Origin: an uncultured Caryophanales bacterium
GTDB lineage: Bacteria; Bacillota_I; Bacilli_A; RFN20; CAG-826
Direction of reading: 5' to 3'
Length of the DNA: 12,189 nt
Assembly (NCBI GenBank): GCA_937895315.1
Contig: CALAWM010000112.1
Span: 1 to 12,189 of the forward strand
Made by a program: the position numbers and the translations under genes. Below, piece by piece: positions 2 through 12,188 of the stretch. Each line of letters starts with the position of its first letter. Position 1 is the stretch's first letter. The notes below the pieces were generated by a model that saw only the letters and a list, made by a program, of their open reading frames with translations, did no database searches and was not told the origin of the DNA.

Positions 2-736
2 CCTGCTCAAATTGTGAACGCCCTTAAACAGCTTAACAAGATACCTAGGATCGATGTGGTAATTTTGGCTCGAGGAGGCGGAAGCCGGGAAGATTTATGG
101 GCTTTTAATGATGAAAACCTAATTTTGGCGCTTAGTAAAAAGAAGATGCCACTAATTAGTGCAATCGGGCATGAAATCGATACAACTTTAGTTGACTATT
201 TGGCTGATGTGCGAGCAAGCACCCCCACCGGTGCCGCCGAATTAGCTGTTCCTGACCAAAATGAACTTAGACAAGACGCGTTAAACCTTGAAATAAGGCT
301 CTATAACGCGTTTAATACGAAGTATACCCATTTATCCACCTCCCTTACTAATTTAATGTCTAGGCCGGTATTAATGAATTTTAGCGCTATTACTAATAAC
401 TTAAATACAATGCTTAATAATGTCACAATAAAATTAAGCGCGAATATTACGAAAATTATTAATAAGTACGAATTACTGAATGAAAACTATAAAGAACGTC
501 TTAATCGATCGATGTTAGTGAATATGGCTGCCTTAAGTGAAAACCTTACCCATCAAAAGGCAACCTTAATGTCATTAAATCCTCGTAACATCTTAAAAAG
601 AGGCTACGCATTCATTAGTAAAGAAGATGAAATTGTCGCTAGTGCCATCCAGTTAAAACCGAAAGATCAAATTAATATTCAATTCAATGATGGTAGTGTG
701 AAAGCCATCGTCACTAAAGGAGAAGAAAATGAGTAA
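2..736 (+). CDS. xseA: Exodeoxyribonuclease VII large subunit, 3' part (5' end outside window)
   Basis: C-terminal part of the large, catalytic subunit of exonuclease VII, which degrades single-stranded DNA to oligonucleotides in repair and recombination together with several copies of XseB. The reading frame is open from base 2, so the start lies upstream; the GTG at 14 is internal. The recognisable family core is near the start: the ARGGGSREDLWAFND stretch (bases about 69-113) and the GHEIDTTLVDYLADVRASTPTGAAEL region that follows. A long helical middle segment and the terminal SLNPRNILKRGYA motif are also typical. The last 8 bases overlap xseB, implying one operon and translational coupling. 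The visible part has no frameshift or gap. Identity is secure; the N-terminal OB-fold domain cannot be assessed. Confidence 0.96.
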   Translation, partial: PAQIVNALKQLNKIPRIDVVILARGGGSREDLWAFNDENLILALSKKKMPLISAIGHEIDTTLVDYLADVRASTPTGAAELAVPDQNELRQDALNLEIRLYNAFNTKYTHLSTSLTNLMSRPVLMNFSAITNNLNTMLNNVTIKLSANITKIINKYELLNENYKERLNRSMLVNMAALSENLTHQKATLMSLNPRNILKRGYAFISKEDEIVASAIQLKPKDQINIQFNDGSVKAIVTKGEENE

Positions 737-917
737 AACCTTAACATTTGAAGAAAAATTAGCAAGACTTAATGTCATTGTCACGGAACTTGAAAGTGGA
801 AAACTTAGTTTAGACGCTAGTTTAACCCTTTTCGAGGAAGGTAATGCCTTAAGCAAAGAACTAGCGGCCGAACTTAATGCCGCCAAGTTAAAAATTGATG
901 AATTACAAGCAAAATAA
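729..917 (+). CDS. xseB: Exodeoxyribonuclease VII small subunit
   Basis: Small helical subunit of exonuclease VII; several copies bind the C-terminal part of XseA and are needed for activity. The 62-residue product carries the family core FEEKLARLNVIVTELESG followed by LSLDASLTLFEEG and a second helix ending KLKIDELQAK. It is shorter than the 75-85 residues usual in E. coli or B. subtilis because the C-terminal tail after the second helix is missing, which is common in small genomes. The start ATG at 729 has a strong Shine-Dalgarno (AAAGGAG, about 716-722) inside the end of xseA and overlaps that gene by 8 bases. A hairpin terminator follows at 987. Confidence 0.94.
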   Translation: MSKTLTFEEKLARLNVIVTELESGKLSLDASLTLFEEGNALSKELAAELNAAKLKIDELQAK

Positions 918-954
918 CCATTAAATGGGCTTTTAGTTGTTTAATAGTAACTAT

Positions 955-967
955 TTAGTAGTTTTTT
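955..967 (+). repeat. 13-bp repeat TTAGTAGTTTTTT, copy 1
   Basis: Exact 13-mer TTAGTAGTTTTTT in the gap after xseB. The same 13-mer recurs only at 5019-5031 and 5243-5255 as far as I can see, both in the intergenic region holding dif. All copies are non-coding and in the same orientation. The T run could serve transcription termination, but no stem precedes it. Function unknown. Confidence 0.6.
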
Positions 968-986
968 ATGTAAAGATTAATGTTAT

Positions 987-1015
987 AAAATAGTGTTTTC
1001 AGCACTATTTTTAAT
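987..1015 (+). terminator. Probable intrinsic terminator of xseA-xseB
   Basis: Perfect 9-bp stem AAAATAGTG (987-995) with CACTATTTT (1003-1011), 7-base loop, continuing into a T-rich tail. The stem is AT-rich and so weak, but it lies 70 bases after the xseB stop and before the dinB promoter, where a terminator is expected. Confidence 0.6.
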
Positions 1016-1029
1016 TAAGGGAGGATAAA

Positions 1030-1057
1030 TTATTCAAGTGAAAATATTATGTAAACT
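1030..1057 (+). other. Degenerate dif-like site with intact XerD arm
   Basis: The right arm TTATGTAAACT (1047-1057) is identical to the XerD-binding arm of B. subtilis dif as I recall it, and matches 10 of 11 bases of the arm of the better dif at 5141-5168. The 13 bases ATATTATGTAAAC (1044-1056) match that site exactly. The left (XerC) half, 1030-1040, is degenerate apart from TTCAA. Overall 19 of 28 bases agree with the 5141-5168 site, in opposite orientation. It overlaps the dinB promoter region. It could be a vestigial or element-borne Xer site, or chance in AT-rich DNA. Confidence 0.4.
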
Positions 1058-1069
1058 AAAAAGTTTAGG

Positions 1070-1075
1070 TATAAT
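1070..1075 (+). promoter_or_regulatory. -10 box of dinB promoter
   Basis: Perfect TATAAT, six bases before the dinB ATG. The candidate -35 around 1046-1052 (TTATGT) is poor. Normal -10 to start-site spacing would put transcription initiation at or very near the A of the ATG at 1082, suggesting a leaderless message. No Bacillus-type LexA box (CGAAC...GTTCG) is visible. Confidence 0.55.
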
Positions 1076-1081
1076 GATTAT

Positions 1082-2248
1082 ATGAGCAAAATAATACTTC
1101 ATATTGATTTAAATGCCTTCTTTGCAGCCTGTGAAGAGATTAAGGATCCTAGTTTAAAAGGGAAACCGATGATCGTTGGTGGCGGCGGACGAAGAGGAAT
1201 CGTTAGCACCGCCAATTATGCAGCGCGAAAATACGGTATTCATTCGGCAATGCCTACCTATAAGGCTATCCAATTATGCCCCGAATTAATCATTAGAGAA
1301 CCCGATTTCAAACTATATCATCACTATTCTTCGCTCTTTTTCAATTATATTAAGGATAATTTCTCACCTTTAATTGAAGTTGCTAGTGTTGATGAATGTT
1401 ATGTTGACGCAAGTGAAGTATTACAAAATGATCCTGCTCCTTTAAAAACCATCCTAAACTTACAACAAACCTTACTAAAGGAATTAGGACTAAGTTGTTC
1501 AATCGGCGTTGCTCCCACTAAATTCCTTGCTAAAATGGCGAGCAACTTTAAAAAACCGCTTGGTATGACCGTATATCGTCGCCGTGAACTTAAAAATACC
1601 TTGTGGATTTTACCTATTACGGAGATGTATGGCATTGGTAAAGCAACGGCACCACGACTCCAAGCGCTTGGCATAAAAACGATTGGCGACTTAGCAAATA
1701 ACAAGAGTGAAGATGTTAAAAACATGCTTGGGAAGAGTTATTTTACATTCCATGACTGGGCAAATGGTTATGGGAGTGATACGGTCATCGTCGATGAGGA
1801 AGATCCCAAAAGTATTGGAAATTCACAAACATTTCTTTTTGACACCGATGATTATGATGAAATAACCGCCTTATTTAAAGAACTTTCGATGTCGGTCTCT
1901 AAAAGAGCAGAAAGAGAGAATAAGGTAGGACTTACGATTCAAATTGTTATTCGCTACTATAATTTTGAAACCGTAAATCGAAGCGTCACCTTAACTAAAC
2001 CTACAAACAAACAACTTACGATCTTTTATGAAGCAATGAAGCTCTTTGATCGAAACTACAAGGATGAACCAATCCGACTTTTAGGGGTTACTTTACAAAA
2101 CTTAAGTGATGAAGGTAGTTTAGTTGAACAATTATCACTTTTCGATGACTTTACTACGAAATCAAAAACTGAAGTTATTATGGACTTACTTAATGAAGAA
2201 TATGATAAACCAGCATTCATCAAACTCAGTGACATGAAGAAGGAATAA
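1082..2248 (+). CDS. dinB: DNA polymerase IV (Y-family translesion polymerase)
   Basis: Error-prone Y-family polymerase that copies past damaged template bases. The 388-residue product has all catalytic parts: HIDLNAFFA with metal ligand D9 and steric-gate position F14, the YAARKYGI fingers segment (46-53), SVDECYVD with D104 and E105, and the thumb helix-hairpin-helix MYGIGKATAPRLQALGI after residue 180. The little-finger domain follows and ends with a canonical sliding-clamp binding motif QLSLF (350-354), so it should be recruited by DnaN. The ATG at 1082 is the only plausible start: an in-frame stop lies at 1052 and there is no Shine-Dalgarno, but a perfect -10 box sits just upstream. The xerD-like gene starts 2 bases after the stop, so the two are co-transcribed. 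Confidence 0.95.
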   Translation: MSKIILHIDLNAFFAACEEIKDPSLKGKPMIVGGGGRRGIVSTANYAARKYGIHSAMPTYKAIQLCPELIIREPDFKLYHHYSSLFFNYIKDNFSPLIEVASVDECYVDASEVLQNDPAPLKTILNLQQTLLKELGLSCSIGVAPTKFLAKMASNFKKPLGMTVYRRRELKNTLWILPITEMYGIGKATAPRLQALGIKTIGDLANNKSEDVKNMLGKSYFTFHDWANGYGSDTVIVDEEDPKSIGNSQTFLFDTDDYDEITALFKELSMSVSKRAERENKVGLTIQIVIRYYNFETVNRSVTLTKPTNKQLTIFYEAMKLFDRNYKDEPIRLLGVTLQNLSDEGSLVEQLSLFDDFTTKSKTEVIMDLLNEEYDKPAFIKLSDMKKE

Positions 2249-2250
2249 GC

Positions 2251-3039
2251 ATGATTATAAGTGAAGCAATTACGCGATATACTGATTTCCTATATTTTGA
2301 AAAGCAATTATCAAAAAATACAGTAGGAGCTTATCTTGATGATATCCATCAGTTCATTAATACTTTTACTTTTACTGACACTACCGAGATCAGTCCCTTC
2401 TCAATTACCGATTTTATCAATTTAGAAAGTCAAAAAGGCCTAAGTAGCGCGACGATTGTTCGCCGTCTATCAAGTGTTTATAATTTTCTGGTTTTTTTGA
2501 AAGATGAAGGGGCTCATCCTTTCGAATTAATGAAAGTTATTCGACCCCGGGTTAATAAAAGTTTACCAACTTATTATACGAATGAAGAAATTGAAGGCCT
2601 TTTAAATGCTCCTGATCAACATAGTCATCGTGGCCTTCGTGATAAGGCAATGCTTGAGGTCATGTATGCCAGCGGACTCCGGGTGAGCGAACTTTTAAGT
2701 TTAAAGCGTGAAGAAGTTAATTTCAATCGTGGAATCATTAAAATTCGTGGAAAAGGTGGCAAGGAACGCATTGTCCCAATTGGCGAATATGCGCTTTATA
2801 CATTAGTCGATTACATTAATGATGTACGTCACCATTACGAAAAAAGTGATAAGCGGACCATTTTTTTGAATCAAAGTGGACGCCATGCTTTTGCAACCCA
2901 CCTTTTAGAGTCCGGTGCGGAATTACGCGCGGTTCAAGCCATGCTTGGTCATACAAATATCGCGACAACGGAAATATATACTCACGTTTCCGCTAAAAGA
3001 ATCATTAGTGCCTACGACCGGATTATGCAAAAGAAATAA
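2251..3039 (+). CDS. xerD: XerD-like tyrosine recombinase with internal deletion of the catalytic His region
   Basis: Tyrosine recombinase of the XerC/XerD type, which in intact form resolves chromosome dimers at dif. The N-terminal SAM-like core-binding domain (about 1-100) is complete. Aligned by spacing to E. coli XerD, R148 corresponds to R144 (SGLRVSEL), K172 to K168 (RGKGGKER), R247 to R211, H270 to H234 (LGH) and nucleophile Y279 to Y243 (IYTH). Between NQSG (207-210) and RHAFATH (211-217) about 32 residues are absent, including the catalytic His of HTLRH and the helix before it. The product is therefore 262 rather than about 295 residues, with the frame kept. The start ATG follows an AAGGA site; the deoB gene downstream matches the Bacillus xerD(ripX)-deoB order, which supports XerD. 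Probably catalytically impaired unless the gap is an assembly error. Confidence 0.88.
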   Translation: MIISEAITRYTDFLYFEKQLSKNTVGAYLDDIHQFINTFTFTDTTEISPFSITDFINLESQKGLSSATIVRRLSSVYNFLVFLKDEGAHPFELMKVIRPRVNKSLPTYYTNEEIEGLLNAPDQHSHRGLRDKAMLEVMYASGLRVSELLSLKREEVNFNRGIIKIRGKGGKERIVPIGEYALYTLVDYINDVRHHYEKSDKRTIFLNQSGRHAFATHLLESGAELRAVQAMLGHTNIATTEIYTHVSAKRIISAYDRIMQKK

Positions 3040-3094
3040 GATTATTACTTTATTAAGTAAAAAGGGTGAATTCGTGTCGTTTTATAACGTAATT

Positions 3095-3103
3095 TGCTAT
3101 AAT
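3095..3103 (+). promoter_or_regulatory. Extended -10 promoter of deoB
   Basis: TGCTATAAT: a perfect TATAAT (3098-3103) with the TGn extension. No good -35 is visible at 17-18 bases upstream, usual for extended -10 promoters. It lies after the xerD stop and 27 bases before the deoB start, giving a short leader containing the AAAGGA Shine-Dalgarno (3118-3123). Confidence 0.65.
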
Positions 3104-3129
3104 ATTTACGAATTAAGAAAGGACAATTT

Positions 3130-4338
3130 ATGGAAAACAAGAAATTTAAACGTGTCTTTTTAATCGTCATGGATAGCGTTGGCATTGGCTATATGAAAGA
3201 TGCTCACCTTTTTGGCGATGAAGGAAGCCATACCTTACTGCACGCCGCCCAAAGTAAACCGGAAGGATTAAAGATCCCGGTCATGGAAAAATATGGTTTA
3301 GGAACTTTAAGTGACATTCCTGGCGTTAAAAAAGTTGATAATCACCCTAATTCTTATGTATTTAAACTAAATGAAGCAAGTAATGGGAAGGATACGATGA
3401 CTGGCCACTGGGAAATGGTCGGTATTCACACGAAAAAACCTTTCAAAACCTTTACTGACACCGGTTTCCCAAAAGAATTAATGGATGAACTTAGTGAAAA
3501 AACCGGATATAAACTTATTGGTAACTATTCGGCAAGTGGAACGGAGATTTTAAAAGAACTCGGTGAAGAACAAATGCGCGATAATAGCCTTATCGTCTAT
3601 ACTTCCGCCGATAGTGTTTTACAAATTGCGGCTCATGAAGAGGTCACTGGATTACAAGAATTATATCGGGCGTGCGAAATTGCCCGGGAAATTTGTATGC
3701 GTCCTGAATACCTTTTAGGCCGGATTATTGCTCGCCCTTACCTTGGAAAAGACAAAAATTCCTTTAAAAGAACGACAAATCGTCATGATTATGCCTTATC
3801 ACCAAATGAACCTACTGCTTTAAATATCTTAAACGATAACGGCTTAACGGTTAGTGCAATCGGCAAAATTAGCGATATCTTTAACCATTATGGTATTACT
3901 AGAACGCAAAAAACCGTTAGCAATCAAGACGGGATGGATAAAACCATTGCCCAAGCCAAAGAAAACGCCTTTAACGGTCTTATCTTCGTTAATTTAGTCG
4001 AATTTGATAGTGAATTTGGCCATCGCCGTAATCCTTTAGGCTACGCGAATGCCATCGAAGAATTTGACGTTCGGCTTGGCGAATTACTCGAAGTCGTAAC
4101 TGAAGATGATTTAGTGTTAGTAACCGCCGATCACGGCAATGACCCAACGTGGCACGGTACTGATCATACTCGCGAAAAAGTGCCGATGATTGCTATATCC
4201 AAGGCCTTCAAACATGGTCGTAAATTAGAGGAACGTGATACCTTTGGTGATATCGGTGCCACCATCCTTAAAAACTTCGGCTTAAAACCAACAAAAACAT
4301 TAATTGGCACCCCAATTAACGAATTAATAGAAGATTAA
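3130..4338 (+). CDS. deoB: Phosphopentomutase
   Basis: Converts (deoxy)ribose 1-phosphate to the 5-phosphate, linking nucleoside breakdown to the pentose phosphate pathway; cytosolic, Mn-dependent, alkaline phosphatase superfamily. At 402 residues it is full length. Visible motifs are VMDSVGIG with metal ligand D15, GKDTMTGHWEM (86-96) with the phosphorylated Thr, likely T89, the cap domain with YTSADSVLQIAAHEE, the FDSEFGHRR segment, TADHGND and the HTREKVP ligand motif near the end. The usual NLVDFD is NLVEFD here, a mild change just before the conserved Asp. It has its own extended -10 promoter and a good Shine-Dalgarno, and a strong terminator follows, so it can be expressed apart from xerD. 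No purine nucleoside phosphorylase gene follows, unlike in Bacillus. Confidence 0.96.
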   Translation: MENKKFKRVFLIVMDSVGIGYMKDAHLFGDEGSHTLLHAAQSKPEGLKIPVMEKYGLGTLSDIPGVKKVDNHPNSYVFKLNEASNGKDTMTGHWEMVGIHTKKPFKTFTDTGFPKELMDELSEKTGYKLIGNYSASGTEILKELGEEQMRDNSLIVYTSADSVLQIAAHEEVTGLQELYRACEIAREICMRPEYLLGRIIARPYLGKDKNSFKRTTNRHDYALSPNEPTALNILNDNGLTVSAIGKISDIFNHYGITRTQKTVSNQDGMDKTIAQAKENAFNGLIFVNLVEFDSEFGHRRNPLGYANAIEEFDVRLGELLEVVTEDDLVLVTADHGNDPTWHGTDHTREKVPMIAISKAFKHGRKLEERDTFGDIGATILKNFGLKPTKTLIGTPINELIED

Positions 4339-4355
4339 TAAAGAAAATCACAAAG

Positions 4356-4386
4356 AAAAGCGCTCATAAGTAGCGCTTTTTTTATT
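4356..4386 (+). terminator. Intrinsic terminator of deoB
   Basis: Nine-bp stem AAAAGCGCT (4356-4364) with AGCGCTTTT (4372-4380), 7-base loop, then a T-rich run. It begins 18 bases after the deoB stop. A clear Rho-independent terminator that isolates the toxin gene downstream. Confidence 0.9.
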
Positions 4387-4470
4387 TTATTGAAAAAAGT
4401 TTATTTTTTTGTACCTAAATGTACTTTTAAGTTGTAGTTATTAGTATGTTTAAGAAAGGAGAAAATAAAC

Positions 4471-5013
4471 ATGCAAGAAGAAAAGCGCTTTATGCGCATC
4501 AGTGACTCGGGAACCGCACAAAGTGAGTTAGAGCGTCCCAAGAAACATTTAGCGGCAATGTTAGATTGGTTTAAAAGGGCATTAGAATACGAAACTTTCC
4601 TTTTAACTAATTCATTACGCTACAAAATTCGCCAGGGGGAGGTATATGAGATTGATTTTGGTCGAAATGTCGGTAGTGAACTAAATGAAAGGCATTACGC
4701 CGTCGTTTTACATCATAGCGACGAAGATGCGCAAAATATTGTTGTCGTCCCGTTAACAACCAAGATCCATTATAGTTATGGCGAAGCAATTGAACTTGGC
4801 TATTTGGAAGGAATAAGAACCAATGAGAAAAGTTATGCCAAAATTAGTCAAATTCGCACGGTCGATAAAGCCCGTATTTATCTACGACCAATTATTAGTG
4901 AACGGTCTGAGACAACGAATCGCCGCCAATTTGGTCCGGTCACAAAACTAACTGGCGATCAATTTAAACTAATCATCAGCGGGATGAACAAGTTGATAAA
5001 TAACAAACTTTAA
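4471..5013 (+). CDS. MazF/PemK-family toxin-like protein with N-terminal extension, no visible antitoxin
   Basis: Residues about 52-178 form a MazF/PemK fold, a family of sequence-specific endoribonucleases usually paired with an antitoxin. Recognisable parts are RQGEVYEIDFGRNVGSE (54-70), the Arg R74 in NERHYAVVL, VVVPLTTK with T96, and KISQIRTVDKARIY (124-137). R74 and T96 line up with the catalytic Arg and Thr of Bacillus MazF, so activity is plausible. The first roughly 50 residues are an extra charged, probably helical region not found in minimal MazF (about 115 residues). The ATG follows a strong Shine-Dalgarno (AAAGGAG). There is no antitoxin gene: the 132-bp gap upstream holds only the deoB terminator and AT-rich sequence, and downstream is the dif region. 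The fold call is firm, the toxin role is inferred. Confidence 0.85.
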   Translation: MQEEKRFMRISDSGTAQSELERPKKHLAAMLDWFKRALEYETFLLTNSLRYKIRQGEVYEIDFGRNVGSELNERHYAVVLHHSDEDAQNIVVVPLTTKIHYSYGEAIELGYLEGIRTNEKSYAKISQIRTVDKARIYLRPIISERSETTNRRQFGPVTKLTGDQFKLIISGMNKLINNKL

Positions 5014-5018
5014 CCCAA

Positions 5019-5041
5019 TTAGTAGTTTTTTAGTAGTTTTA
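5019..5041 (+). repeat. 13-bp repeat TTAGTAGTTTTTT, copy 2, with a shortened tandem copy
   Basis: TTAGTAGTTTTTT at 5019-5031, immediately followed by an overlapping shorter copy TTAGTAGTTTTA at 5030-5041. It begins 5 bases after the toxin stop and ends 4 bases before a perfect DnaA box. The TAG triplets read 3'-GAT-5' moving away from the box, the polarity described for DnaA-trio elements. Confidence 0.6.
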
Positions 5042-5045
5042 TTTC

Positions 5046-5054
5046 TGTGGATAA
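5046..5054 (-). promoter_or_regulatory. DnaA box 1 (perfect)
   Basis: TGTGGATAA on the + strand, i.e. the consensus DnaA box TTATCCACA on the - strand. It is one of two perfect copies in this intergenic region and in the whole window, as far as I can see. Confidence 0.7.
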
Positions 5055-5082
5055 CTCACTATCCTAAAGATTATAAAACAAT

Positions 5083-5131
5083 GACTGATTACGGATTATT
5101 ACCCACAAATAGTCATGTAATCAGTCTTTTT
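5083..5131 (+). terminator. Hairpin terminator after the toxin gene
   Basis: Ten-bp perfect stem GACTGATTAC (5083-5092) with GTAATCAGTC (5117-5126), then TTTTT. The 24-base loop is long for a terminator. An outer pairing AAAACAAT (5075-5082) with ATTGTTTT (5134-5141) could extend it around the T run, and ATGACT (5081-5086) can alternatively pair with AGTCAT (5111-5116). Likely ends toxin transcription before dif. Confidence 0.65.
5099..5107 (+). promoter_or_regulatory. DnaA box 2 (one mismatch)
   Basis: TTACCCACA, one base off the consensus TTATCCACA, in the loop of the hairpin at 5083-5126 and in the opposite orientation to the two perfect boxes. Weak alone; supported by the neighbours. Confidence 0.4.
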
Positions 5132-5140
5132 ATATTGTTT

Positions 5141-5168
5141 TGTTTACATAATATCTATTATTGAAAGT
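5141..5168 (-). other. dif: dif site, chromosome dimer resolution site
   Basis: Read on the - strand, this 28-mer matches B. subtilis dif (recalled from memory) at 23 positions. It has a XerC arm ACTTTCAATAA (5168-5158), a 6-base centre (5157-5152) and a XerD arm TTATGTAAACA (5151-5141); the + strand run GTTTACATAATAT (5142-5154) is an exact match. The two arms are imperfect inverted repeats as required for XerC and XerD binding. It sits exactly where + strand genes from the left meet - strand genes from the right, the arrangement expected at a replication terminus. No site-specific insertion is seen beside it. Confidence 0.85.
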
Positions 5169-5197
5169 AATAGTAATTTCACAATTTACCCTTTATT

Positions 5198-5206
5198 TGT
5201 GGATAA
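5198..5206 (-). promoter_or_regulatory. DnaA box 3 (perfect)
   Basis: TGTGGATAA on the + strand, identical to box 1 and in the same orientation, 29 bases beyond dif. The flanks differ from those of box 1, so this is not a simple duplication of a longer stretch. Confidence 0.7.
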
Positions 5207-5242
5207 CGCCAATCTTTTGTTTCTTCTCCTATTATTTGCGTG

Positions 5243-5255
5243 TTAGTAGTTTTTT
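5243..5255 (+). repeat. 13-bp repeat TTAGTAGTTTTTT, copy 3
   Basis: Third exact copy, on the other side of dif from copy 2 and in the same orientation, just before the terminator of the nadD operon. Function unknown. Confidence 0.6.
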
Positions 5256-5270
5256 GCTATTCCCTAAATA

Positions 5271-5299
5271 TTAAAAACGCCCATTTGTTAAGGGGCGTT
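5271..5299 (-). terminator. Intrinsic terminator of the yqeG-nadD operon
   Basis: On the - strand: stem AACGCCC (5299-5293) with GGGCGTT (5282-5276), 10-base loop, followed by a run of T. It lies 22 bases past the nadD stop and is a convincing GC-rich Rho-independent terminator. Confidence 0.88.
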
Positions 5300-5321
5300 A
5301 ATTCACTGACTATTTGTTTTC

Positions 5322-6404
5322 TTATTTAAGAAATGTATTAAAGCAAGCTTGAGTTAAGCGGTTGTCGACTTTCTTATCATTCGCCTCTAAATACGCCTTA
5401 TTCGCCCTCAGCACTTCAACAAAGCCATTATCAATGTCTTTTACGCACAAGGCGATGAGCGTGCTACTATCGTATCCACGGCTTGGATCTAATTTATCGG
5501 CAACATAAAGCACTTTCCCAAGTTGTGACATCTTCTTGTCCCCGGTTGCATGCACTTTAATGGCATCTAAAATAACCTTATCTTTAATCAAAAACTCATT
5601 CTCCGCCATGTAACTACCAATAAATTGGTGGTGGGACCATGAAGGAAGGTCGAGAAATTTTGGAAAATGTTCGTTCATAAGTCGTTCTGTCTTGTTTTTG
5701 GGCACTTCTTTACCAATATCATGGAGAAACCCGGCGATAAAGGCACTTAAGGCATCAACATCGTTGGCGATTGCGATTAAGCGACTCAATTTTGCAACCT
5801 CAAAACTATGGAAATAACGTTTATCACTTAATAATTTATTAATCCGGTATGCAAAGTATAGTTTATTTTGACCAATATATTCAAGAATTGAACTTGGAAT
5901 ATCAAGAGATTCAAAATGACGGACGGCACTACTAGAGACATTACGTAGCGAACCACTTATTTCTTGCATGTTAAAGCGGTTTTTTAAATAGTCACTCAAT
6001 GTACTACCTTTCCGCTTATAAACTAATATCGTTGCATTCTTGGCGATTTCATCAGGATTCATCCATTTATCAAACACTTCCGCTTGATCTTCCCCAAGTA
6101 ATAAGAAAAGCTCATCATCCGGGAATTTTTCTTTAAGTTTACTTATCGTTAAGTAGGTATAATTGGTTTTACCTTCATTTTTTTCTTCAACAAGCGATAT
6201 TTCAAAGCCTTCTTCACCATTTATTCCCATTTTAAGCATGTTTGCCCGATGTTTAAAGGGGGTATCAACTTTCTTCCACACTGTTGAGGGGGAAAGCAAA
6301 AAAAGCACCTTATCAGCGTTTATGGCCTTCTTGGCAGTTCTGGCAATCGTTAAATGCCCGTTATGTAACGGATCAAAACTACCAGGATAAATGATTATTT
6401 TCAT
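5322..6404 (-). CDS. nadD: Nicotinate-nucleotide adenylyltransferase fused to YqeK HD-domain Ap4A hydrolase
   Basis: Fusion of two enzymes. Residues 1 to about 185 are NadD, which adenylates nicotinate mononucleotide in NAD synthesis: GSFDPLHNGHL (8-18) is the nucleotidyltransferase motif, TYLTI (83-87) and SSSAVR (157-162) are the other family signatures. Residues about 186-360 are YqeK, an HD-domain hydrolase shown in other bacteria to cleave diadenosine tetraphosphate symmetrically; its metal ligands are H199, the HD pair H228-D229, H258/H259, H285 and D303 (VADKLDPSR). In Bacillus these are adjacent genes; fused forms occur in mycoplasmas. The ATG overlaps the yhbY stop as ATGA, so translation is coupled. 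It is the last gene of the operon, ended by the hairpin at 5271-5299; rsfS, which follows yqeK in Bacillus, is absent. Both active sites look intact. Confidence 0.95.
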   Translation of the reverse strand: MKIIIYPGSFDPLHNGHLTIARTAKKAINADKVLFLLSPSTVWKKVDTPFKHRANMLKMGINGEEGFEISLVEEKNEGKTNYTYLTISKLKEKFPDDELFLLLGEDQAEVFDKWMNPDEIAKNATILVYKRKGSTLSDYLKNRFNMQEISGSLRNVSSSAVRHFESLDIPSSILEYIGQNKLYFAYRINKLLSDKRYFHSFEVAKLSRLIAIANDVDALSAFIAGFLHDIGKEVPKNKTERLMNEHFPKFLDLPSWSHHQFIGSYMAENEFLIKDKVILDAIKVHATGDKKMSQLGKVLYVADKLDPSRGYDSSTLIALCVKDIDNGFVEVLRANKAYLEANDKKVDNRLTQACFNTFLK

Positions 6405-6694
6405 TTTGGTAATGCTATTTTTGGATCTTTTGTATTGCGACGGTACAAGACAAAGGTCCGTCCCTTCGTTTCAATAATATCGCTATTTGTTTGGGTGGCA
6501 ATAATCATCGCCATTTCTTTAGTTGTCTCTTCGACACTTTTTAGAAGGCTTACTTTAATTAATTCACGGGCGGTTAACGCTTTATCAAGTAAGGCGATAT
6601 GGGTTTCACCGATAACGTTTTTACCAAGTTGATAAAGGGCTTTTAATTGATTGGCTTTACTCTTCAAAAAGAGTTTTTGTTCTTTATTTAACAT
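6401..6694 (-). CDS. yhbY: YhbY/YqeI-type CRM-domain RNA-binding protein
   Basis: Small cytosolic RNA-binding protein of the YhbY/CRM family, associated with pre-ribosomal particles. The 97-residue protein is about the normal size. It has the family start LNKEQKLFLKSKANQLKALYQLGKNVI, where LGKN stands for the GxxG RNA-contact loop (usually GKGG or GKNG), then LLDKALTARELIKVSLL and the C-terminal GRTFVLYRR. It starts 2 bases after the yqeH stop, with no strong Shine-Dalgarno, so coupling is likely. It ends in TGA, the only non-TAA stop among the genes whose ends are visible, and overlaps the nadD start by 4 bases. Confidence 0.93.
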   Translation of the reverse strand: MLNKEQKLFLKSKANQLKALYQLGKNVIGETHIALLDKALTARELIKVSLLKSVEETTKEMAMIIATQTNSDIIETKGRTFVLYRRNTKDPKIALPK

Positions 6695-6696
6695 AT

Positions 6697-7770
6697 TTAA
6701 ATCTTACTTTCATTGTAACTGATGGCTACTCCCCGAGGAGCGAAAATACGGATTACACGACCGTTTCCTTTAAAGCTTACGAATCCAAGACCATTCCAAC
6801 TCACATCATATTTAATATCTTCATGGGTGGTGAATTCAAAGGCATCTAAATCGCTTGTTTTATCGACTAAATGGGAAATAGGGCTCGTCTTTTTGAGGGC
6901 AACAACATTATTAAAGGTGCTATCAGCCTTACTTGTTTGACTGCGGCTTAGTTTCACTCCTTCCGCAAAATAGAAAGTAAAGGATGTGAATGGACCACTC
7001 ACAAAGTCAAGACGGGCAATACCGCCAATTAAGATAGTTTGTTTTGGCATTAATTGGTAGGTACGGGCTTTAATTTCTTTGCGGGGTACTATTATTTTTA
7101 CAACTTCTTTCTCGGCTAAACCTAAAAGACTATTATTAATCGAGATTCCGGGAGTATTGGGATAAATACTTGTTGTAATAAAACGGCTTGTTTCGTTTTT
7201 ATAATTACGTAATAACGTTTTAATAAGACTTGATTTACCACTACTTACCGCCCCAATGAAATAAACGTCTTTTTTATGGTGATGTTTCCTAATTTCTTCC
7301 ATAACTTCAACGATATTATAGTTTTTAGTACTACTTGCTAAAATAATTTCTTTAACGTTTAATGCTTCTTTTTTAATTTTATTGGCGACATATTCTTTTA
7401 ACTTCTTCTCATTTGTCTTTTTCGGCAATAAGTCAAATTTGTTGGCCACCAAAATAATATCAAGACCAGCAAGGGCGTGATTAATTTCATGGTTAAAGGA
7501 TGATTCAAAATTAAAGACGTCGACCACATAGACGACTAAGGCCTTTTTCCGTTTAATATCATCAATTAAGCTCATAAAATCGAGCGTTACGATTGGTTCT
7601 GCTAATTTGTCGGCGCTATAATGATGCGTTTTAAAACAGCGTTGGCATAAAAAGACATCATCCCGTTCTAAATGAGTGCTTGGGACATAACCAACTTCTT
7701 TTTCATCTTCACTTTGGAGTACGACTCCGCAGCCATAACATTTTTTAACTCTCTTCAGTTCTTGAACCAT
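6697..7770 (-). CDS. yqeH: YqeH circularly permuted ribosome-assembly GTPase with a gap in the G domain
   Basis: GTPase for 30S subunit assembly. Order seen: zinc finger C11-x2-C14 ... C42-x2-C45; then the permuted G domain with G4 NKFD (110-113), G5 ASS (145-147), P-loop GAVSSGKS (173-180) and a TPGI remnant of G3 (206-209); then the C-terminal domain beginning PRKEIKARTYQL. In family members about 19 residues lie between the TTSxxP segment and DTPGI, carrying the switch I PGTT and the G3 Asp. Here TTSIYPN runs straight into TPGI, so both are missing, in frame. Total length is 357 against about 366 in B. subtilis. The ATG is preceded by AAAGGAG at about 10 bases and overlaps yqeG by 26 bases. 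Family is certain; GTP hydrolysis is doubtful as written. Confidence 0.93.
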   Translation of the reverse strand: MVQELKRVKKCYGCGVVLQSEDEKEVGYVPSTHLERDDVFLCQRCFKTHHYSADKLAEPIVTLDFMSLIDDIKRKKALVVYVVDVFNFESSFNHEINHALAGLDIILVANKFDLLPKKTNEKKLKEYVANKIKKEALNVKEIILASSTKNYNIVEVMEEIRKHHHKKDVYFIGAVSSGKSSLIKTLLRNYKNETSRFITTSIYPNTPGISINNSLLGLAEKEVVKIIVPRKEIKARTYQLMPKQTILIGGIARLDFVSGPFTSFTFYFAEGVKLSRSQTSKADSTFNNVVALKKTSPISHLVDKTSDLDAFEFTTHEDIKYDVSWNGLGFVSFKGNGRVIRIFAPRGVAISYNESKI

Positions 7771-8368: not shown

Positions 8369-8650
8369 ATGGAACTAAACAAAAAACAAGAATATCTTTT
8401 AGTTGGAGGCATGACTTTAGGTTTAATCGCTGGCTTTTTAATGCCGCTTATTGGCTTAATTATTCTGGGAAGTATGGGAAGTTACGCATTTAAATCTACT
8501 AATAATCTACCAAAAGAGCAAAAAACCATGATGATCATGGCTTTTGTGGTCATTGTCTTATATTATCTTTTAACAATAATTTTTAACGTGATGAACCCTC
8601 CCGTTGTCGAGGATCCATCAACTGTTAGTCAACTATTAATCTTCATCTAA
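8369..8650 (+). CDS. Small membrane protein of unknown function, two predicted TM helices
   Basis: I do not recognise a family. The 93-residue product starts with a short charged segment MELNKKQEY, then a long hydrophobic Gly-rich helix (about 10-40, rich in G, L, I and M), a polar loop FKSTNNLPKEQK, a second hydrophobic helix (about 53-73) and a short Pro- and acid-containing tail. This suggests two membrane helices with a small loop between them. It is the only + strand gene right of dif, so it opposes the likely direction of replication. No Shine-Dalgarno precedes the ATG. Its last 15 bases overlap the end of parC on the other strand. AT-rich codon use like its neighbours and a plausible promoter support it as real. 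Confidence 0.6.
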   Translation: MELNKKQEYLLVGGMTLGLIAGFLMPLIGLIILGSMGSYAFKSTNNLPKEQKTMMIMAFVVIVLYYLLTIIFNVMNPPVVEDPSTVSQLLIFI

Positions 8651-11218
8651 TAAGTCGAAAATCGACATTTGTTCATAGTTATCGTCAGGTTGTTCTACTT
8701 TGACGGTTTCCGCTTTGACAATTGGGGCAAACGCTTTAGTGTTTTCATCAATTAAAGGAATTTCTTCGCTAAAGACCCCATTTATCATTTCTTCTTCGGC
8801 AAGTTCGTTAATATTTCGCTTGGCGTATTTGTCAATTGGCGTCGGGGCTAAATCGACTATTGATAATGGTAAGATAACATTTTGATTTGTTAAAGCGTGT
8901 AATTTAAGGTTTTGCGCGTTCTTTTGATATTTAAAGACACTAATGACGGTGTGCGGGTCACTTTTGAATATTTTCATAACATGTTGGAGCCGTCCTAGGC
9001 GATTTGTGGTGGCAAAGTAACTATGATCTAAAAGCCGTAAATGGCCTTCCATTGTCACAACCCCGGTCCTTGTTCTTGTTTCGGGGTCAACACTGATCAC
9101 ACCGACAATTTTATCGGTTTTATGCTTATTAATTGCTTTAACGCCACTCGCTTTAAGACCTATGACACTAACTTCATTTTCATTATAAAATGAGGCAGCA
9201 CCGTTCTTGGTAATGACTAATAAGTCACTATTCCCGGTTGTTAATGTGACATCGGCCAGTTGATCGCCACTTGAAAGCCGCATTGCTTGTAATGGTCTTG
9301 TGTAACGTTGCGCGACAAAGTCTTTGACGACACTTCGTTTAATCATCCCATTACTAGTCACCATCGCAAAATATAAATCTTCGCGGAAGTTTTTGACATT
9401 AAAGGCACGGATGATTTTTTCTTCAGGATTCATTTGCACCAAATAGTTGATGTGTTTTCCTTCATCCTTCCATCGTCCTTCATTTATTTCATAAACTGGG
9501 ATATATAAGTAATTCCCAAAATTAGTAAAAGCAATTAAGAAATCTTTTGTATTTAAAAGACTGCTCGTGACGAGTAAATCACTACTTTTGACCCCCGGCA
9601 AGGCATTGTCGCCGCTACTTTTATATGATTTTAAACTACTCCGTTTAATATAACCATCACGAGTTAAGGCGACCATTACATCTTCATCGGCGATTAAATC
9701 TCGTTTATCAATTTGAATGACTTCACCTTTTTCTTGAATCTTGGTCCGACGATCATCACCAAACTTTAATGCAATCCGTTTTAAGTCTTTTATTATGACG
9801 TTATGGAGTGATTTTTCGTTTTCCAGAATGTCTTTTAATTCACTAATATTTTGGGTGATTGTTTCTTTTTCATTAATTAATACGCTAATATCGGTATTAC
9901 TTAATTTATAAAGTTGGAGCATAACGATCGCTTCGGCTTGTTCTTCACTAAAACCATAAGCTTCAATAATATTTGCTTTAGCATTAGCCTTATCGGTACT
10001 TTTCCGAATTAAAGCAATAATTTCAGTGACGACACTGATGGCTTTAATAAGGCCTTCAATAATATGGAGTCTTTTTTCAAGTTTTGCTAATTCAAAAACA
10101 CTCCGTCTTCTAATTACTTCAACTTGGTGTTCAATATATGTTTCAACTAATTCAAGAATATTTAAGGTTTTTGGCCGATTATCAGCAATCGCCACGACGT
10201 TCGCGTTATAACCAGTCCGTAATTGTGTACGATTGAATAAATACTCTAAAATAATTTCGGCATTGGCTTCTTTTTTTAGTTCGACGACAATTCGTAAGCC
10301 ACTGCGATCACTTTCATCACGAACTTCGATAATGCCATCGACATTATGATTTTGTTCAATTAAACCAATTTCCCGTAAAATAACACTTTTATTTGCTTGA
10401 TAAGGGATTTCGGTAATGACAATATTTTGACCGTTTTTATCTTTTTCAATCGTTGCCTTGGCTTCGACTTCAACCCGACCTCGTCCGGTCTCATATATTG
10501 CATCAAGCCCTTCACTTTTATAAATAACCCCGCCGGTTGGGAAGTCAGGACCTAAAATAAACTTACGGATATCGCTAATTTTAGTGTTTTTATGAGTCAA
10601 TGTATAAATAATGGCATCAACAACTTCGTGTAAGTTGTGTGGGGGAATTTCGGTAGCAACGGCAACGGCAATCCCTTGACTACCATTTACTAATAAGTTT
10701 GGAAAACGTGATGGTAAAACAATTGGTTCAAAGCTTGTATCATCAAATGTTAAATTTTCATCAACTGTTTCTTTTTCAATATCTAACGTTAATTCACTGG
10801 CTAATTCATTAAGCCGTGCTTCGGTATATCGATAAGCCGCCGGACTATCACCATCAATACTCCCGTTATTACCTTGGAAATCAATAAGCGGATAACGTAG
10901 GTTCCAATCTTGGGACATCCGGGCAAGGGCTTCATAAATACTAGAATCACCATGGGGGTGATATTTACCCATAACCATCCCGACAGTGTGGGCACACTTC
11001 TTCATTGGTTTATTAAAAGTCGTTCCTTCATCATGCATTGCATAAATAATGCGCCGTTGGACTGGTTTTAAGCCATCACGAGCATCAGGAATCGCCCGAT
11101 TTTGAATAACATATTTTGCATATACGCCAAAACGTTCCCCCATTACCTCATCCATCGGTAATTCAAGGATTGTTTCTTTTGTTTCTATAACTTCATTCTT
11201 TTTTTGCTTCTTCGCCAT
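8636..11218 (-). CDS. parC: DNA topoisomerase IV subunit A
   Basis: DNA-breaking subunit of topoisomerase IV, which decatenates daughter chromosomes together with ParE. The 860-residue protein has the winged-helix core with catalytic Y131 in AAYRYTEAR, the DARDGLKPVQRR and HPHGDSSIYEA segments, and a coiled-coil region around 370-460. The C-terminal beta-pinwheel shows degenerate repeats (GYIKRSSLKSY, GMIKRSVVKDF, GHLRLLDHSY). There is no GyrA box, supporting ParC over GyrA. The quinolone-determining positions are wild type (S92 and E96, equivalent to S. aureus GrlA S80 and E84). The last residues include QMSIF (850-854), resembling a sliding-clamp binding motif. The ATG is 1 base after the parE stop with an ideal GAGGTG site. 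The 3' end overlaps the small membrane protein gene; I see no terminator between them. Confidence 0.95.
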   Translation of the reverse strand: MAKKQKKNEVIETKETILELPMDEVMGERFGVYAKYVIQNRAIPDARDGLKPVQRRIIYAMHDEGTTFNKPMKKCAHTVGMVMGKYHPHGDSSIYEALARMSQDWNLRYPLIDFQGNNGSIDGDSPAAYRYTEARLNELASELTLDIEKETVDENLTFDDTSFEPIVLPSRFPNLLVNGSQGIAVAVATEIPPHNLHEVVDAIIYTLTHKNTKISDIRKFILGPDFPTGGVIYKSEGLDAIYETGRGRVEVEAKATIEKDKNGQNIVITEIPYQANKSVILREIGLIEQNHNVDGIIEVRDESDRSGLRIVVELKKEANAEIILEYLFNRTQLRTGYNANVVAIADNRPKTLNILELVETYIEHQVEVIRRRSVFELAKLEKRLHIIEGLIKAISVVTEIIALIRKSTDKANAKANIIEAYGFSEEQAEAIVMLQLYKLSNTDISVLINEKETITQNISELKDILENEKSLHNVIIKDLKRIALKFGDDRRTKIQEKGEVIQIDKRDLIADEDVMVALTRDGYIKRSSLKSYKSSGDNALPGVKSSDLLVTSSLLNTKDFLIAFTNFGNYLYIPVYEINEGRWKDEGKHINYLVQMNPEEKIIRAFNVKNFREDLYFAMVTSNGMIKRSVVKDFVAQRYTRPLQAMRLSSGDQLADVTLTTGNSDLLVITKNGAASFYNENEVSVIGLKASGVKAINKHKTDKIVGVISVDPETRTRTGVVTMEGHLRLLDHSYFATTNRLGRLQHVMKIFKSDPHTVISVFKYQKNAQNLKLHALTNQNVILPLSIVDLAPTPIDKYAKRNINELAEEEMINGVFSEEIPLIDENTKAFAPIVKAETVKVEQPDDNYEQMSIFDLLDED

Positions 11219-11219
11219 A

Positions 11220-12188
11220 TTATTTCACCTCATCAAGGAATGTATCATAAGCGTTGAAATCAACGTTTTCTTCAATCCACTTCCGTCTGACACTTGCATC
11301 TTTACCCATTAAGACTCGGACCCGCATTTCGACGAGTAAAGGATCGTTGACACTAATGCGAATCAGTGTTCTTGATTCCGGATTTAGGGTTGTTTCCCAT
11401 AGTTGATCACTATTCATTTCCCCAAGCCCTTTGTAACGGGTAATTTTATATCCTGGACCGATTTTTTCTTTAGCAGCTTCTAAACTTTGATCGTCATATG
11501 CATATTCAAAGACGAGTTTTTTATTAACTTGTTTGCTAACCCGGTAAAGGGGTGGAACAGCCATATAAATCATTCCTTCTTTAAGTAATGGTTTCATATA
11601 ATGATAGAAAAATGTTAATAATAACGTTTGAATATGGGCACCATCAGTATCCGCGTCGGTCATAATAATGATTTTTCCGTAACGGCAATCATCAAGATCA
11701 AAGTTTTGGCCAAAGCCGGCGCCAATAGTGTTGATTAAAGTCGCAAATTCTTCGTTTTTAAGCATTTTATCAACCGTATTTGTATCGGTGTTAAGGGGTT
11801 TACCCCGTAATGGTAATACCGCTTGGTGAATGCGGTCCCGCCCACTTTTGGCAGTACCACCAGCACTATCACCTTCAACGATGAAAAGTTCATTTTTCTT
11901 ATAGTCTTTACTTTGGGCAGGTGTTAATTTTCCGCTTAATACGATATCATTTTTAACTTTCTTCGTCTTCCGTAAATTTTCTTTGGCTTTCCGGGCAGCG
12001 ATTCTTGCATTTTGGGCATCGACACATTTTTTAACAAGACTAACGGCAAATTCGTGATTTTCCGCTAAATAGTAAGTTAATTTAGTATAAATAAAGTTAT
12101 TCATCGCACTATTTGCGTCATTCGTGCCAAGTTTCCCTTTAGTTTGACTTTCAAATTGTAAAATACTTTCGGGAATCCGCAGACTAAT
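11220..12188 (-). CDS. parE: DNA topoisomerase IV subunit B, C-terminal part (5' end outside window)
   Basis: ATPase subunit of topoisomerase IV; only the last 323 codons or so are present, since the frame stays open to the window edge. The ATG at 12104 is internal: upstream codons encode ISLRIPES and then QTKGKLG, a conserved GyrB/ParE transducer segment with its switch Lys. The TOPRIM domain follows, with EGDSAGG holding the catalytic Glu and MTDADTDGAHI the DxD metal site. PLRGKPLNT and YKGLGEMNSDQLWETT, conserved in the family, come next. It lacks the long GyrB insert. Pairing with parC one base downstream identifies it as ParE rather than GyrB. The ATPase domain cannot be judged. Confidence 0.93.
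   Translation of the reverse strand: MSLRIPESILQFESQTKGKLGTNDANSAMNNFIYTKLTYYLAENHEFAVSLVKKCVDAQNARIAARKAKENLRKTKKVKNDIVLSGKLTPAQSKDYKKNELFIVEGDSAGGTAKSGRDRIHQAVLPLRGKPLNTDTNTVDKMLKNEEFATLINTIGAGFGQNFDLDDCRYGKIIIMTDADTDGAHIQTLLLTFFYHYMKPLLKEGMIYMAVPPLYRVSKQVNKKLVFEYAYDDQSLEAAKEKIGPGYKITRYKGLGEMNSDQLWETTLNPESRTLIRISVNDPLLVEMRVRVLMGKDASVRRKWIEENVDFNAYDTFLDEVK

Follow-up and report, generated by a model that had tools for sequence, protein, structure and literature searches.

The closest described counterpart of the locus analysed here is the XerCD/dif system of B. subtilis (CodV/RipX), which has a 28-bp site built as 11-6-11, two Xer proteins and a translocase of the FtsK/SpoIIIE family. In the single-recombinase systems XerS/difSL and XerH/difH, as here, a recombinase gene is linked to its site; for XerS and difSL the linkage is stated in the abstract of the review PMC5357621. 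The same review describes difGGI and the TLC phage site as having a good XerC arm but an XerD arm that has diverged, and these IMEX (TLC phage, gonococcal island) afford a third comparison. A fourth is provided by the SMC unloading sites of B. subtilis: PMC8357415 and PMC12322038 credit Karaboja (2021) with the finding that XerD unloads SMC near the terminus. As to gene placement, Kono (2011, PMC3025954) reports that most xerC genes are close to dif and that xerD genes are generally found toward the origin. Against that statement, a xerD gene beside dif is unusual.

The DNA examined, called the window, is a 12,189-nucleotide stretch from an uncultured Caryophanales bacterium (contig CALAWM010000112.1 of GCA_937895315.1). 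The host assembly is a draft of 1,011,605 bases in 204 contigs and is 85% complete. The features around the putative terminus are as follows.

1082 to 2248, + strand: dinB (DNA polymerase IV), the gene before xerD
2251 to 3039, + strand: xerD, 262 aa, with 30 aa missing between residues 211 and 212 relative to the homologue P0001 (292 aa)
3130 to 4338, + strand: deoB (phosphopentomutase)
4471 to 5013, + strand: PemK/MazF-like protein, the last + strand gene before dif
5076 to 5140, + strand: hairpin with U-run, probable terminator of the + strand genes (-21.1 kcal/mol, z -6.4, none of 200 shuffles as good)
5141 to 5168, - strand: dif site, 28 bp, identified by its match to B. subtilis dif, its uniqueness and shuffles (XerD arm 5141-5151, central 6 bp 5152-5157, XerC arm 5158-5168)
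5276 to 5299, - strand: weaker hairpin and trailing U-run, which probably terminate the - strand genes (-10.1 kcal/mol, z -2.3; matched or bettered by 7 of 200 shuffles)
5322 to 6404, - strand: nadD-yqeK fusion, encoded on the strand of dif and upstream of it
6401 to 6694, - strand: yhbY-like RNA-binding protein (69.1 bits, cut-off 78.5)
6697 to 7770, - strand: yqeH-like GTPase (289.3 bits, cut-off 297.4)
8636 to 11218, - strand: parC (topoisomerase IV subunit A)
11220 to 12188, - strand: putative parE (topoisomerase IV subunit B), truncated by the contig end

Read on the minus strand from 5168 to 5141, the site is ACTTTCAATAA-TAGATA-TTATGTAAACA, that is, two 11-bp arms around 6 bp with a conserved XerD arm nearly identical to that of B. 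subtilis. Its XerC arm, ACTTTCAATAA, deviates from ACTTCGCATAA, the usual form in the family. An earlier note on this DNA had reported agreement with B. subtilis dif at 23 positions including 13 in a row. Recomputation gives the same figures, 23 of 28 identical and 13 consecutive (ATATTATGTAAAC), with reference letters confirmed in a portion of PMC3025954. A fortuitous resemblance might be suspected in a stretch that is A+T-rich, the more so as the likeness to B. subtilis is close in one arm only. In 300 dinucleotide shuffles of the window, however, the best match to B. subtilis dif ranged from 17 to 21 and never reached 23; moreover, the site recurs at the same place at 123 family sites, and in two relatives the skew peaks at it. 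The shuffles and the family-wide conservation at one place rule out a chance match, to which we assign next to no probability.

The note had also named what would tell against it, a better-conserved dif site elsewhere in the genome. None was found in the host assembly (85% complete draft) or in the relative G103. In the host assembly, 5141-5168 is the sole place within three mismatches of itself, and the family pattern described below matches once in this 85% complete assembly, as does its reversed control. In G103, the dif site ranks first of all 28-mers, with 21 of 28 positions of B. subtilis dif (the next has 19); against the family consensus it has 26, and the next, with 20, is its own reverse strand.

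The site lies, as claimed, at the only convergence of + strand genes from the left and - strand genes from the right. On one side xseA, xseB, dinB, xerD, deoB and the PemK-like gene run toward it and end at 5013; on the other, parE, parC, an unnamed 195-aa open reading frame and the yqeH-like, yhbY-like and nadD-yqeK genes end at 5322. The proposed proximity of topoisomerase IV and a Xer-type gene, within 7 kb, is likewise correct: dif is 2.1 kb from the end of xerD and 3.5 and 6.1 kb from the near ends of parC and parE. The last of these is the only gene named by its position and by what we take to be a TOPRIM motif. Two converging units enclose dif, and both have a hairpin that is probably a terminator, so that little transcription is likely to run through the site; the U-run of the 5076-5140 hairpin stops at the base adjoining dif. 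A consensus promoter/terminator scan of 4300-5700 reported neither dif-side hairpin, and found one promoter-like site against a shuffle mean of 4.6.

Two side observations may be added. By eye, the PemK/MazF-like protein at 4471-5013 has an extra N-terminal part, which is also present in the relative G053 (L107 7080-7619), and no antitoxin partner gene is apparent beside it. The heptamer TTAGTAG occurs at 955, 5019, 5030 and 5243 on the + strand and at 8496 on the - strand, four of the five being near gene ends or dif.

Because the host chromosome is in 204 contigs, GC skew was checked on the relatives G103 and G019; within the window itself, cumulative skew turns at 4837. G103 is a single contig of 1,061,998 bases, and its cumulative skew peaks at 719,187 and is lowest at 204,329. 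Its dif starts at 719,220, 33 bp from the maximum, and dnaA occupies 204,067-204,549. The G019 contig (1,481,977 bases) was sampled in 40 stretches, of which 39 could be read. Between 240 and 340 kb the skew peaks at 298,591, 34 bp from dif (298,531-298,557), and between 1000 and 1060 kb it is lowest at 1,024,601, with dnaA at 1,023,707; the stretches starting at 400,001 (0.006), 440,001 (0.083) and 1,080,001 (-0.013) run against a two-arm skew. The separation of dif from dnaA is 0.485 of the contig in G103 and 0.489 in G019. Because gene strand and skew go together, the convergent gene order and the skew cannot be taken as independent of each other; the antipodal dnaA is independent of the gene order. 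The terminus position that had been proposed is therefore seen in both relatives as a skew switch 33-34 bp from dif and nearly opposite dnaA, and from these we infer the same position in the host's chromosome. With that extension from relatives, 5141-5168 is almost certainly the chromosome's dif site at the replication terminus.

Of eight octamers tried in G103 as FtsK-orienting sequences, the G-rich ones were too rare to judge, GAGAAGGG occurring 16 times against 8. Another candidate, GAAGAAGG, occurred 131 times against 55 in G103, but its bias may track the coding strand and it was dropped.

The extent to which this arrangement is shared was assessed with a family pattern, ACTTNNNATAANNNNNNTTATGTWAAC, allowing at most one mismatch, in 142 genomes drawn from the host's family. 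The pattern is found in 127 genomes (129 sites) and in 31 of the family's 35 genera; the reversed-pattern control is found in 7 of 142. The match is single in 125 of the 127 genomes and double in two. Among the 15 pattern-negative genomes, the four inspected (G021, G047, G070 and G095) all carry a weaker dif-like copy in the same place, no more than about 480 bp past nadD-yqeK or yqeK, in which the XerD arm is altered in its last bases.

Neighbouring genes were counted from the matches listed, leaving aside rows for a second Xer gene, for gyrA-type or partial parC, and for a weak second nadD; the nadD-yqeK count includes, in some genomes, the yqeK part alone or a piece at a contig end. Among these matches, nadD-yqeK is on the contig of at least 123 of the 129 dif sites, upstream and on the same strand in 123 of 123, with a median gap of 224 bp (range 14 to 5,482). 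The xerD gene shares the contig at 109 sites or more, downstream and on the opposite strand in 109 of 109 (median 3.9 kb, maximum 6.2 kb among the matches listed). Likewise parC does so at a minimum of 110 sites, upstream and on the same strand in 110 of 110, again among the matches listed (median 3.5 kb, maximum 9.0 kb). All four elements occur together on at least 95 family contigs, so that the grouping of dif, recombinase gene and decatenase on one segment, remarked in the earlier note for the window, recurs in the family. Six sites among the matches listed have no nadD-yqeK on the contig: the single matches of G002, G014, G015 and G119 and the second matches of G036 and G097, the latter two probably chance.

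The terminus in this family is a fixed cassette, parC ... nadD-yqeK > dif < deoB-xerD-dinB. In this it differs from the B. subtilis system, since in the host's family the xerD and topoisomerase IV genes, where they are on the contig of dif, lie within 9 kb of it among the matches listed. Beyond the family, the pattern matches in 32 of 55 genomes searched from other families of the order. By eye, 24 of these 32 have dif on the strand of nadD-yqeK or yqeK and 1.1 to 1.7 kb beyond it: 24 of 26 in families f3 and f5 and none of six in f4, f6 and f8. A search for related loci that started from nadD-yqeK gave seven, all of Apilactobacillus and too remote for comparison. No published description of the cassette was found in a literature search, which does not prove that none exists.

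The recombinase encoded beside dif is of the XerD type. P0001 scores 320.7 bits with the XerD profile and 277.3 with the XerC profile (XerD cut-off 329.6), and the Xer near dif in G103 scores 311.8 and 289.4 bits, respectively. Both Xer genes of G103 were located by tblastn, and the second shows the opposite preference, XerC 304.9 against XerD 293.8 bits. All of these recombinases score just under the XerD/XerC equivalog cut-offs. By these profile scores G103 encodes both XerD (near dif) and XerC; it thus has two Xer proteins like B. subtilis, and the two recombinases and the ordinary 28-bp dif set it apart from the single-recombinase systems. The gene preceding the second Xer we take to be trmFO; B. 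subtilis presumably likewise has xerD beside deoB and xerC behind trmFO. XerC was not found in the host draft (204 contigs, 85% complete), where, apart from xerD, PF00589 detected just one gene, a short integrase located on a separate contig. PF01580 (FtsK/SpoIIIE) was found in six of six genomes searched, the host included.

The xerD gene of the window has a gap of 30 codons in frame. P0001, 99% identical outside the gap, is full-length, and the 30 residues are present at one place in nine further aligned relatives; XerD homologues are 290-299 aa in all 120 listed of 7998 found. The missing region presumably includes the position of the His of the HxxR motif. Either a recent deletion or an assembly fault would account for the gap. 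Elsewhere in the host genome, an open reading frame that appears hsdS-like by eye (L003 894-1938) adjoins the short PF00589 tyrosine integrase, and the two possibly form an invertible specificity locus.

These features suggest a conventional route to dimer resolution. XerC would bind the nadD-side arm and XerD the deoB-side arm; translocation by the FtsK/SpoIIIE-type protein, which presumably also activates recombination, would pair the two dif copies of a chromosome dimer; XerCD recombination between them would yield monomers; and topoisomerase IV, encoded 3.5 kb away, would remove catenanes. In this respect the dif site is an ordinary one of a known kind. The less ordinary part of the locus is the rigid terminus cassette in a two-recombinase family, together with a putative XerD operator.

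Three relatives carry inserts between two dif-like copies.

L107, 7750 to 9455: insert in G053
L133, 6117 to 10862: insert
L134, 4101 to 9583: insert

In G053 a full dif is accompanied by a second copy 1,678 bases away, beside nadD, in which 14 bases at the XerC end are identical and 6 of 11 in the XerD arm. In G058 and G026 the copies are 4.7 and 5.5 kb apart; the first 14 bases at the XerC end are again kept, and the XerD arms agree at 5 and 7 of 11 positions. In each of the three relatives the full copy faces deoB; recombination into the host dif by an element whose XerC arm is good but whose XerD arm is poor would give this arrangement. The flanking of these inserts by a full dif and an XerD-arm-divergent copy is as in IMEX. 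The hosts differ, two inserts contain Rep_OBD and one a Zot-like protein, and integration is predicted from sequence. These genes are of phage or plasmid type: Rep_OBD is found in the G058 and G026 inserts and the Zot-like protein in G026 (20.9 bits, cut-off 20.3); 70 of 75 Zot-like homologues come from assemblies whose longest contig is 1 to 10 kb. PHROGs gave no match for ten insert proteins, nor Pfam for four of the seven queried, and no recombinase family was detected among the insert proteins searched, a subset of the open reading frames. The inserts may be read as filamentous-phage-like elements, or remnants of them, that use the host Xer, and in that they lend indirect support to XerCD binding and recombination at dif. 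Pieces matching the G053 insert are kept beside dif in G073, where promoter-like and terminator-like pieces are seen by eye in a row between nadD and dif (L005 880-1400).

Such inserts raise the question whether 5141-5168 might itself be no host dif but an attachment site that an element integrating through Xer has left behind. The window has one copy and no insert, however, and in many genomes only a short stretch (median 224 bp) separates nadD-yqeK from the site, which sits at the skew switch. In the relatives with an insert the full site faces deoB, which fits recombination of an element with a poor XerD arm into a host dif. An attachment-site origin is accordingly very improbable, and the site is best regarded as the host's own dif.

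A second XerD arm, without a partner, precedes the dinB-xerD gene pair.

1046 to 1056, + strand: solitary XerD half-site ATTATGTAAAC, putative XerD operator, 13 bp before TATAAT (1070-1075), with dinB starting at 1082

This addition sets the host family apart from the B. subtilis system. Its conservation was examined at 102 family loci with DNA upstream of xerD, 80 of them chosen among the xerD matches listed. Ninety-eight have a dinB start and at least 100 bp before it (G015, G050, G094 and G119 were omitted), and each was searched from at most 130 bp ahead of dinB to 15 bp inside it. The motif ATTATGTWAAC is present exactly in 67 of 98 genomes and with at most one mismatch in 77, whereas the XerC arm and the reversed motif are each exact in none of 98. 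Among 400 permuted motifs, exact matches average 0.25 genomes and none reaches 67 (largest 63); with one mismatch allowed, the mean is 2.7 and none reaches 77 (largest 75). The permuted motif that reaches 63 is perhaps a near-copy of the motif. Exact half-sites occur in 20 of 28 genera sampled, being absent from g6 (0/4) and g27 (0/5) and rare in g18 (1/9) and g25 (1/8).

The half-site is tied to the promoter region. Upstream DNA totalling 134,304 bases (79 stretches) holds 64 exact sites, of which 59 are within the 145-bp windows at dinB. In 40 of 80 cases the distance from the end of the half-site to the best TATAAT-like box is 13-15 bp, which puts the half-site over the -35 region. Its orientation is reverse in 69 of 77 and forward in 8. 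The base after the exact ten-base half-site is C or T in 69 of 72 and the next is A in 70 of 72; [CT]AA likewise follows 12 of 17 dif sites among the matches listed. The exact motif is found elsewhere not at all in G103 and four times in 768,000 bases of G019, both of which are without an exact promoter site.

The preferred reading is that the half-site is an operator, at which XerD binding would occlude the dinB-xerD promoter and so repress it (autoregulation). The exact and near-exact counts, equalled by none of the permuted motifs, the concentration of exact sites before dinB, the overlap with the -35 region, the [CT]A that follows the site as is usual at dif, and the occurrence of both orientations all favour it. 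Against it stand the genera in which the exact site is absent or rare, the one permuted motif that comes near, and a weak co-variation between dif and promoter site at the variable T/A position (of 69 pairs, 56 T/T, 5 A/A, 7 with A in dif and T in the promoter, and 1 the converse). In addition, the reverse form includes TTAACA, near a -35 box, so that promoter conservation could contribute. We hold the operator reading tentatively, at close to an even chance. No report of XerD autoregulation was found in a literature search, although absence is not thereby proven.

TTAACA also invites the alternative that the half-site is conserved as part of the core promoter, or that some other regulator binds there to control dinB, which is often a damage-response gene. 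The reverse form does place this hexamer over the -35 position. Yet ten consecutive bases are kept in both orientations, the forward form has no obvious -35-like hexamer by eye, and the motif, which lacks symmetry, agrees with the XerD arm as well as with the bases flanking that arm. TTAACA may explain part of the preference for the reverse orientation, but not the ten bases conserved in both, and this alternative appears unlikely.

It is also conceivable that the half-site is a terminus-proximal XerD site for SMC unloading. There is precedent in B. subtilis, where XerD is likewise expected to bind near the terminus outside dif, and the half-site of the window is about 4 kb from dif. The candidate differs from the B. 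subtilis sites in preceding the gene pair of xerD itself. Its tie to the dinB start and the scarcity of further exact copies (TTATGTWAAC occurs beyond dif and half-site in only 3 of 24 terminus segments) make an unloading function distinctly unlikely, and the operator remains the preferred reading. Taken as a whole, the locus would combine a fixed cassette with an XerD that acts both as recombinase and as regulator, repressing its own operon through a lone arm over the -35 region and so tuning the recombinase, and perhaps DinB, beside dif. We offer this composite picture provisionally, as somewhat short of an even chance.

Terminus neighbourhoods are usually regarded as plastic. In the host's family, in contrast, the order and orientation of dif, nadD-yqeK, xerD and topoisomerase IV are constant whenever these share a contig, among the matches listed. 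Because the neighbours are fixed, dif can be found by them in draft genomes of the family, and contigs can be oriented from dif. The dif-flanked inserts suggest that hijacking of Xer reaches the host's lineage. The XerD arm before dinB-xerD provides a direct and cheap test case for a Xer recombinase that may control its own expression.
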